Virus record (IMG/VR): IMGVR_UViG_3300030406_005280
Span: 1 to 24,639 of that record
Source of the DNA: a virus
DNA length: 24,639 bases
Direction: 5' to 3' (one strand)
The notes below the pieces were generated by a model, which did no database searches, had not been told where the DNA came from, and worked only from the letters and a program-made list of their open reading frames with translations. Positions 4,105 to 5,442 of this stretch are shown here, piece by piece (position 1 is the stretch's first letter; each line of letters starts with the position of its first letter). The translations under genes and the position numbers were made by a program.

Positions 4105-4343
4105 CAACAAGTTACAGTAAAATCAGAGGAAGATCAAAAGGCTATAGATATAGAAATTCTATAGTCGATCTTCAAAGAGATCTTCAAAGAGCAAATGCTA
4201 AAAAAACTCCACAAGAGTTGGAGGAGAATGAAATGTTTGAAGATGATCCTCGTGCTTTAAAAGAAATAGAATATGGTCGAGTGGTAAGAAAACCTACGAC
4301 CATGCTCCATGCCATGAAAAAAGGAGATGTATTTGATGATTAA
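4101..4343 (+). CDS. Hypothetical basic protein, 80 aa
   Basis: Starts in an ATGA overlap behind GAGG. The N-terminus is basic and Tyr/Arg-rich (SKIRGRSKGYRYRNS), followed by a local duplication, LQRDLQRA, caused by a 12-base direct repeat (ATCTTCAAAGAG twice, about 4167-4191), then an acidic stretch. It is likely unstructured or nucleic-acid-binding; no family is recognised. It overlaps the methyltransferase start by eight bases. Confidence 0.7.
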   Translation: MTTSYSKIRGRSKGYRYRNSIVDLQRDLQRANAKKTPQELEENEMFEDDPRALKEIEYGRVVRKPTTMLHAMKKGDVFDD

Positions 4344-5442
4344 TCATCTTGATTTATGTAGTGGTATTGGTGGGTTTGCTCTTGGATTTAAATGGGCAAA
4401 CCTATCCAAACCCATAGCATTTTGTGACTTTGATATTCCATGTCAAAAAGTGTTAGCAAAAAATTTTCCAAACGTACCAATCTTTAATGATGTAAAGGAG
4501 ATAGCAAGTGACCCAAAGAGATTTATTCAACAACCCATCGGAATCCTTAGTGGAGGATATCCATGTCAACCATTCTCCACAAGTGGCAAAAGGCTTGGAT
4601 CGGAAGACCCTAGACACATCTTTCCGTACATCCATGAAATTGTTAAACAAATTAGACCCTCTTATTGTGTTTTCGAAAACGTATATGGGCATGTCTCCAT
4701 GGGACTTGACGAGGTACTCTTTGCAATGGAAGACCTCAACTACCAAACGAGGACATTTATTGTTTCGGCTAGTAGTATCGGAGCAAGACACAAACGAGAC
4801 AGAGTGTGGATCGTCTGTAAAAACTTGGGCGACTCCTACTACCATGGATTATCTACCACCAAGATCGGCAGAGGGAACGAAGAGATTGCAAGAGGGTGCG
4901 AGGAAAGGCAGAAAGAGACCGAGCAATTTAAGAGAACAAGTAGACCCAAAGACAATGGAGATGTATCCAACTCCGACAACCAAGGGATTTGGACATGCAT
5001 CGGAGGGTCAGACAATGATCTTCAGAAAGAAAGTGGAGAGGGGAGAACTGTCAGAAACAGAAGCTCAATCTATGATGAATGGGGTAACTTTAAGACCACC
5101 GAGGATGGAAGAGTGGAAGTTTCCAACTCCGAACAGTGGTCAAGTGAAACATTCATACAATGGCAACAATCAGTATTACGAAAAGCGATTGAAAGATGGG
5201 AGACAGATCGACCTCACAATGAAGATGTATCAGACCGAGGGAGATGCGAGACTAAACTGCGATTGGACAGAGTGGCTAATGGGTTATCCTATTGGATGGA
5301 CGAGCCTAGAGGAATCCCAAGAATCACAACCGAACAACAAAACAGACCACAAAGATTAAAAATGTTGGGGAATGCAATAGTACCCCAACATGCATATCAT
5401 ATAGGACTAGCAATAAAGGAGGACATTAAAAATGAAAGATGA
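4336..5442 (+). CDS. DNA (cytosine-5)-methyltransferase
   Basis: The 368-residue protein transfers a methyl group from S-adenosylmethionine to C5 of cytosine, typically to shield phage DNA from restriction. Motif I is DLCSGIGGF (6-14), motif IV GGYPCQPFS with catalytic Cys77, motif VI the ENV triad at 114-116, motif VIII RHKRDR ending at Arg156, and motif X LGNAIVPQ from Leu344. The segment between VIII and X, about 180 residues, holds the target-recognition region and is unusually polar and G+C-rich. ATG 4336 is chosen because GGAG (4323-4326) is too close to ATG 4327. The same DNA is open in the +1 frame for 852 bases (next entry). The last codons overlap a small gene. Confidence 0.93.
   Translation: MINHLDLCSGIGGFALGFKWANLSKPIAFCDFDIPCQKVLAKNFPNVPIFNDVKEIASDPKRFIQQPIGILSGGYPCQPFSTSGKRLGSEDPRHIFPYIHEIVKQIRPSYCVFENVYGHVSMGLDEVLFAMEDLNYQTRTFIVSASSIGARHKRDRVWIVCKNLGDSYYHGLSTTKIGRGNEEIARGCEERQKETEQFKRTSRPKDNGDVSNSDNQGIWTCIGGSDNDLQKESGEGRTVRNRSSIYDEWGNFKTTEDGRVEVSNSEQWSSETFIQWQQSVLRKAIERWETDRPHNEDVSDRGRCETKLRLDRVANGLSYWMDEPRGIPRITTEQQNRPQRLKMLGNAIVPQHAYHIGLAIKEDIKNER
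4508..5359 (+). CDS. Overprinted ORF nested in the methyltransferase gene, 283 aa
   Basis: This frame is +1 relative to the methyltransferase and lies wholly inside it. It opens with GTG 4508, seven bases after a good Shine-Dalgarno AAAGGAG (4494-4500), and stays open for 283 codons. The product is not random-looking. It has a block with SLQWKTSTTKRGHLLFRLV, three aromatic-x-Thr-Pro repeats (WATPTT at 107, YPTPTT at 153, FPTPNS at 205) and LNCDWTEWLMGYPIGWT at 249. I recall the 'WPTPT' repeats and the 'LNP-WVEWLMGFP-GWT' ending from phage proteins loosely annotated as DNA methylases. It carries no methyltransferase catalytic motif itself. Whether it is expressed is unproven; function unknown, possibly a partner or regulator of the methylase. 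Confidence 0.6.
   Translation: MTQRDLFNNPSESLVEDIHVNHSPQVAKGLDRKTLDTSFRTSMKLLNKLDPLIVFSKTYMGMSPWDLTRYSLQWKTSTTKRGHLLFRLVVSEQDTNETECGSSVKTWATPTTMDYLPPRSAEGTKRLQEGARKGRKRPSNLREQVDPKTMEMYPTPTTKGFGHASEGQTMIFRKKVERGELSETEAQSMMNGVTLRPPRMEEWKFPTPNSGQVKHSYNGNNQYYEKRLKDGRQIDLTMKMYQTEGDARLNCDWTEWLMGYPIGWTSLEESQESQPNNKTDHKD

Follow-up and report, generated by a model that had tools for sequence, protein, structure and literature searches.

The window analysed here, a stretch of 24,639 nt that makes up most of a 26,050-base IMG/VR virus record, contains a gene for a C5 DNA methyltransferase, hereafter alpha, and a second reading frame, hereafter beta, that lies entirely within the first in relative frame +1 (Table 1). 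The initial annotation had reported a +1 frame open for 283 codons inside the methyltransferase gene, and this frame is indeed present at 4508–5359. Alpha ends with the stop codon at 5440–5442; its mechanical start is the ATG at 4327, and the ATG at 4336, nine bases 3' of an AAAGGAG, is the likelier one.

Table 1. Features of the alpha/beta locus, in positions of the window.
Feature	Position	Strand	Basis
Alpha ribosome-binding site AAAGGAG	4320..4326	+	sequence
Alpha: C5 DNA methyltransferase catalytic subunit, 368 aa, motifs I–VIII and X	4336..5442	+	PF00145, phrog_363, M.HhaI match, AF2 and Foldseek
Beta ribosome-binding site AAAGGAG	4494..4500	+	AAGGAG 4495–4500 invariant, 67/67 aligned relatives
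Beta: overprinted +1 gene, GTG start, 283 aa	4508..5359	+	phrog_1008, dNN/dNS, openness in relatives
Alpha motif IV (GGYPCQPFSTSGKR, catalytic Cys)	4552..4593	+	invariant alignment columns
Alpha motif VI (CVFENVYGH)	4666..4692	+	invariant alignment columns
Alpha motif VIII (GARHKRDRVWIV)	4780..4815	+	M.HhaI homology of alpha ends here; invariant columns
Alpha read-through linker, residues 171–335	4846..5340	+	AF2 pLDDT <50; much of it close to neutral in dN/dS
Beta cassette 1 (WATPTTMD..LREQV family, the commonest)	4826..4963	+	cassette family comparison
Beta cassette 2 (YPTPTTKGFGHASEGQ... family)	4964..5119	+	cassette family comparison
Beta cassette 3 (FPTPNSG...)	5120..5251	+	without family match beyond close relatives
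Beta motif IX (LNCDWTEWLMGYPIGWT)	5252..5302	+	motif IX profile, position, relatives
Alpha motif X (LGNAIVPQ)	5365..5388	+	invariant columns; AF2 confident helix

As had been noticed at the outset, beta possesses its own AAAGGAG seven bases ahead of the GTG at 4508. All 67 aligned relatives keep the AAGGAG followed, at fixed spacing, by a start codon, which is ATG in 53 and GTG in 14 of them. The hexamer is invariant although AAG accounts for ~27–30% of the lysine codons and GAG for 30–44% of the glutamate codons, and the beta start signal, AAGGAG together with the start codon, is itself under selection.

The openness of the +1 frame was compared with a null in which the alpha protein was kept fixed and its codons were randomised by usage or by codon shuffle (5000 trials each). 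The randomised genes had on average 12.2 (codon usage) or 6.4 (codon shuffle) stops in the +1 frame, and a fully open +1 frame was obtained in 0/5000 trials for either randomisation. In the reverse null, with the beta protein fixed, ~10–19 frame-0 stops are expected over the second part of beta, and none is observed. As neither null predicts an open partner frame, both frames must be kept open. Relatives were collected by two window-seeded scans of viral contigs (80 loci per frame); without exception, their +1 frame keeps its phase relative to alpha and is open across the match.

For the 51 relatives clearly different from the window, alpha is 72% identical upstream of the overlap, 73% across motifs IV–VIII, 53% in the variable region and 69% after the overlap, and the +1 frame 47, 65, 82 and 47%, respectively; in the middle of the gene the +1 product is better conserved than the methyltransferase frame (82% vs 53%). 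Seven divergent relatives have a variable-region +1 identity of 77–87%, vs 33–38% from a null in which synonymous codons were reshuffled while keeping alpha.

Selection was estimated with a re-implemented OLGenie-type method that counts sites by their effect in both frames. Across 740 pairs of 80–97% nucleotide identity, which are non-independent and offer very few sites in the SS class, dNN/dNS of beta is 0.77 before the overlap, 0.41 over motifs IV–VIII, 0.08 in the variable region and 1.14 after the overlap, and dNN/dSN of alpha is 0.10, 0.18, 0.65 and 0.11 over the same regions. The 95% confidence intervals, which are bootstraps over codons, are 0.06–0.11 for beta and 0.42–1.00 for alpha over alpha residues 164–340 (0.08 and 0.65), and 0.25–0.65 for the beta value over motifs IV–VIII. 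In sliding windows over alpha residues 166–315, beta lies between 0.00 and 0.13 and alpha between 0.26 and 2.14, most alpha windows being near or above 1. Past residue 330 the constraint returns from beta to alpha in a clean cross-over, and outside the overlap it bears on the methyltransferase frame only. The initial suggestion that both frames are selected at once is thus correct over motifs IV–VIII and fails over residues ~166–315, where selection acts mainly on the +1 frame. The more general proposal of a second, overprinted gene is borne out by the selection, null and conservation tests: the relatives of the two scans display neither stop codons in the matched stretch of the +1 frame, nor loss of the SD or start, nor a lack of additional +1 selection, and purifying selection on this frame is strong. 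Taken together, we regard it as practically certain that the overprinting is real and that two proteins are encoded in two reading frames of one DNA stretch.

Alpha matches Pfam PF00145 (E 4.8e-37) and phrog_363 (E 1.1e-57). Its match to M.HhaI covers residues 6–165 only (numbered from ATG 4327), stopping at motif VIII. The AlphaFold (AF2) model is confident for most of residues 1–170 and from residue 336 to the end, and gives no structure to residues 171–335 (pLDDT below 50); a Foldseek search with the ordered part retrieved M.HaeIII and M.HhaI (both E ~1e-12), as well as DNMT1. A small motif IX profile, made from six single-chain enzymes of the same bacterial genomes, had no significant match in any window between motifs VIII and X of 31 alphas. 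Single-chain C5 enzymes of these genomes match PF00145 positions 1–323, and the alphas of the family typically only to ~165–200. Since alpha is without motif IX, motifs I–X do not lie on one polypeptide. The target-recognition domain (TRD) does not seem to reside in the large chain either, as its residues 171–335 are disordered in the AF2 model and largely near neutral, the constraint being on beta. The initial annotation credited the methyltransferase frame with all catalytic motifs, which has to be corrected: motif IX and a conserved target-recognition region are absent from the main frame. LGNAIVPQ, a segment of the methylase frame that it pointed out, is motif X, whereas RVANGL in the same frame is for the most part motif IX showing through with a shift of one base. 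To carry the catalytic chain on to motif X, the alpha linker must stay free of stops.

The +1 product had been left without a role. The database search that had been recommended for it retrieved a near full-length profile match to the PHROG family phrog_1008 (residues 14–268, E 6.7e-23), which is labelled simply 'DNA methyltransferase', yet beta is without motifs I–VIII and X. No sequence relatives of beta were found in Pfam, NCBIfam and PDB, and PDB sequence searches with beta, a beta profile or the motif IX consensus gave nothing relevant; an assignment as a Glycos_trans_3N or GH-E protein was rejected, the matches being at chance level (E about 0.02–0.1). The C-terminal end of beta fits motif IX (LNxxWxEWLMGYPxGWT, and LNPxWVEWLMG(F/Y)PxGWT in relatives). 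The best window of the motif IX profile is the LN..WLMG site in 33/34 betas. Most of the more distant betas match it significantly, whereas the short motif of the window itself has p about 0.5 against shuffles; the absence of motif IX from the large chain and its presence in the second are thus read from the family and from position, not from the window alone. A profile–profile comparison of beta with single-chain methylases yielded a sole, weak alignment, of motif IX with motif IX (E 0.35). The AF2 model of beta alone was poor (pLDDT 49), so that the fold of beta is only putative. Given the phrog_1008 match and motif IX, the interpretation of beta that fits best is that of a second subunit of alpha's own enzyme.

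This division extends to the whole family. We counted 165 distinct motif IX sites, 155 with a motif X downstream, and IX lies in the +1 frame relative to X in 154 of the 155. The loci come from phages (Paenibacillus, Lacticaseibacillus, Bacteroides, Acinetobacter, Escherichia and Klebsiella) and viral contigs, and also from bacterial genomes or prophages across many phyla; both frames are listed as 'DNA methyltransferase' in some P. larvae phage records, and one frame in most others. Both frames are coding, the constraint is split between them as a two-subunit enzyme would lead one to expect, and motifs I–VIII and X are separated by frame from motif IX throughout the family.

A few loci depart from this layout. 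In a Flavobacteriales MAG (L193), stop codons interrupt the overlapped beta, whose motif IX is degraded, and a separate gene directly downstream is a beta with cassettes and motif IX, whose N-terminal part aligns to beta from residue 40 (hhalign 99.4%). This single case speaks for beta as a separate protein that would work with alpha; a search of 299 genomes for further separate betas in the same order found only that of L193 and one short match. A Rickettsiales MAG gene (L203, 2134–3165) has motifs I–VIII, IX and X in one frame, its tail matching PF00145 positions 277–322 and the motif IX of DRM2, each weakly and in the right place, and a partial beta is still found in +1. An ancestral single-chain enzyme was rejected for this gene, as the +1 frame holds beta until just before motif IX; for the same reason it is more likely a frame-shifted derivative, possibly a re-fusion of the two subunits. 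No single-chain relatives were found in the viral search. At two loci (L190 and L370) indels bring IX into frame with alpha while throwing X out of that frame, and we read these as decayed (prophage) copies or assembly errors. In another (L360, 2397–3728), alpha runs ~500 bases further than beta and has motif X close to its own end; the distance between IX and X in the DNA is therefore free. Separately, the alpha frame of one locus (L286, 1332–3932) is fused behind a terminase large-subunit-like domain in a single 867-aa ORF (Pfam Terminase_6N at 63–260 and DNA_methylase at 477–678).

Because motif IX is in +1 of motif X in nearly all of these loci, a two-polypeptide C5-methyltransferase of the M.EcoHK31I type is the most likely reading, and we think it very probable, from the arrangement of the motifs, that beta is its motif IX-bearing second subunit. 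Alpha, read in frame 0, would form the large domain, with motifs I–VIII followed by X at the C-terminus, and would bind AdoMet and provide the catalytic cysteine. Beta would be initiated internally at 4508 from its own AAGGAG, in frame +1, as a second chain that supplies the small domain that alpha lacks, i.e. an array of ~41-residue target-recognition cassettes (here three) and then motif IX. The alpha reading of the cassette region would be a mostly disordered linker, stop-free so that X stays on the catalytic chain. The two chains may associate into one active enzyme, each cassette may recognise one target sequence, and methylation could protect the phage DNA from host restriction, as the phage context and precedent suggest. 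Activity, complex formation and specificity are thus predictions of the model.

To our knowledge, overlapping two-subunit methylases are rare and known from one laboratory enzyme, M.EcoHK31I. Its small subunit was reportedly found by Lee and colleagues, in 1995, to be encoded in another frame inside the large-subunit gene. The second chain is likewise encoded here in the other frame within the first gene. In M.EcoHK31I (YGGCCR), the large subunit holds motifs I–VIII and X and the small one motif IX, both proteins being required (PMC3404938), a likeness to alpha and beta that was drawn by description, not by sequence. Contrary to its predicted TRD, which was placed in the large subunit (PMC3404938), the conserved TRD region would be here on beta, as a multi-cassette array, and no neighbouring restriction enzyme was noticed beside the locus. 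M.AquI is also split into a catalytic and a recognition chain, with IX and X together on the small subunit along with part of the variable region (PMC3404938), whereas in the present locus alpha carries X and beta has IX alone. The multispecific phage C5 methyltransferases of SPbeta, phi3T, H2 and relatives share the phage origin, and their several TRDs in series and anti-restriction use (PMC12707154, PMC8936443) would have a counterpart in the cassettes predicted here; those enzymes are single chains, while here the array is on a separate polypeptide in the other frame of the catalytic gene. No earlier description of this overlap in phages was found in the literature searched, an absence that does not prove novelty; judged by its motifs, the arrangement was found in many phages, beyond the M.EcoHK31I precedent.

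The WATPTT, YPTPTT and FPTPNS blocks, pointed out initially as patterned protein, are the starts of ~41-residue cassettes that recur, differently combined, in related betas. We delimited 493 cassettes in 150 distinct betas, mostly 2–6 per beta, and sorted 384 of them into 42 families, so that 50 distinct arrays could be assigned in full. The commonest family was seen with 16 different neighbours to its right, and four family pairs are found in both orders. When the anchor was relaxed, the set of loci enlarged and the cuts set at 70%/50%, 259 cassette pairs are ≥70% identical while the alpha catalytic cores are <50% identical, and 109 of these pairs sit at different array positions; a strict-anchor recount with 80%/45% cuts leaves 1. 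A first count of 319 shared pairs, from betas with unlike N-termini, was dropped, being inflated by truncated contigs and misplaced array starts. We keep the claim of cassette exchange moderate and quote the 259 only with its cut-offs. The first two cassettes of the window recur at 57–75% identity in betas whose alpha core is only 36–47% identical. The last cassette block lies a median of 42 residues upstream of motif IX, and in size, position just ahead of IX and modularity the cassettes resemble the TRDs of multispecific methylases (PMC8936443, PMC12707154). The published TL-motif core (PMC2413257), P[STCA]PT, occurs in just 111 of the 493. From modularity, size and position, the cassettes are probably exchangeable target-recognition domains. 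In one locus (L226, 2120–2350) a complete overlapped alpha/beta pair is followed by a second, short ORF that stands alone and holds a single TP cassette and motif IX; could it be a spare specificity cassette?

Other explanations of the +1 frame can be weighed against these results. Some compositions can yield long +1 ORFs by chance, and many records annotate only the methylase here, so one could imagine a frame left open by methyltransferase codon choice and giving no protein; the randomised genes, the conservation of beta, which exceeds that of alpha over the latter half of the overlap, the beta dNN/dNS of 0.08 and the invariant SD and start argue against such an accident, which the selection tests already refute and which we deem extremely improbable. 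Programmed frameshifting from alpha, with no internal initiation, would give a single chain (fused I–VIII, TRD and IX) in canonical motif order through IX. It is nevertheless very improbable, as the +1 frame is already constrained over motifs IV–VIII, which a frameshift product would not use, the SD and start codon are invariant, frame 0 is open through to motif X, and the separate beta of L193 retains the N-terminal region of beta. A hidden selfish element is suggested by the ShiLan domain, an HNH endonuclease in the alternate frame of a mycobacteriophage methylase that belongs to an insertion element (PMC11855218) and shows the same theme, an ORF in the alternate frame of a phage methylase gene whose main-frame reading is disordered. 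Profile searches, in contrast, gave no convincing HNH or other nuclease match in beta, which moreover spans catalytic motifs IV–VIII and, unlike an optional insertion, is present in practically all relatives, and a homing endonuclease has a negligible probability here.

Beta might instead be a protein that shares the DNA and is independent of the methylase, e.g. with an anti-restriction or regulatory role, in keeping with its want of a sequence relative of known structure and its uninformative structural model. We find this improbable: the motifs of a single enzyme are shared out between the two frames almost without exception, alpha is devoid of both motif IX and a conserved TRD, and a beta of L193, though a gene of its own, adjoins alpha. 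A more serious alternative accepts the two-subunit enzyme and takes the cassettes as structural repeats or alpha-docking elements. Their TP start is conserved far beyond what a base-reading element should show, the TL consensus is met only in part, and the recognition residues could also lie in the N-terminal region of beta; the cassettes nonetheless occupy the place of the TRD ahead of motif IX, vary in number and change in combination, so that we hold structural repeats to be the less likely reading, and prefer target recognition.

A two-subunit enzyme would account for phrog_1008, a 'DNA methyltransferase' family devoid of catalytic motifs, and for the apparent absence of motif IX from many phage C5 methylases. 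Because annotation usually retains just one frame, the specificity half is often missing from genome records, and an alpha cloned without beta would be expected to be inactive. Same-strand overprinting is seen here with unusual clarity: selection passes from one frame to the other where domains meet, and large sets of natural replicates as well as internal controls are at hand. It seems reasonably likely that phages harbour a widespread methyltransferase family whose whole specificity subunit, mostly 2–6 exchangeable target-recognition cassettes and motif IX, is written in the +1 frame of the catalytic gene. If so, cassettes would be gained, lost and recombined although each has to be stop-free in two frames, because the catalytic chain reads through them to motif X, and multispecific anti-restriction methylation and overlapping coding would form one system. 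Elsewhere in the window, a ferredoxin-like phage gene (16588–17229, minus strand; phrog_3704, E 4.5e-107) lies near an endolysin gene.
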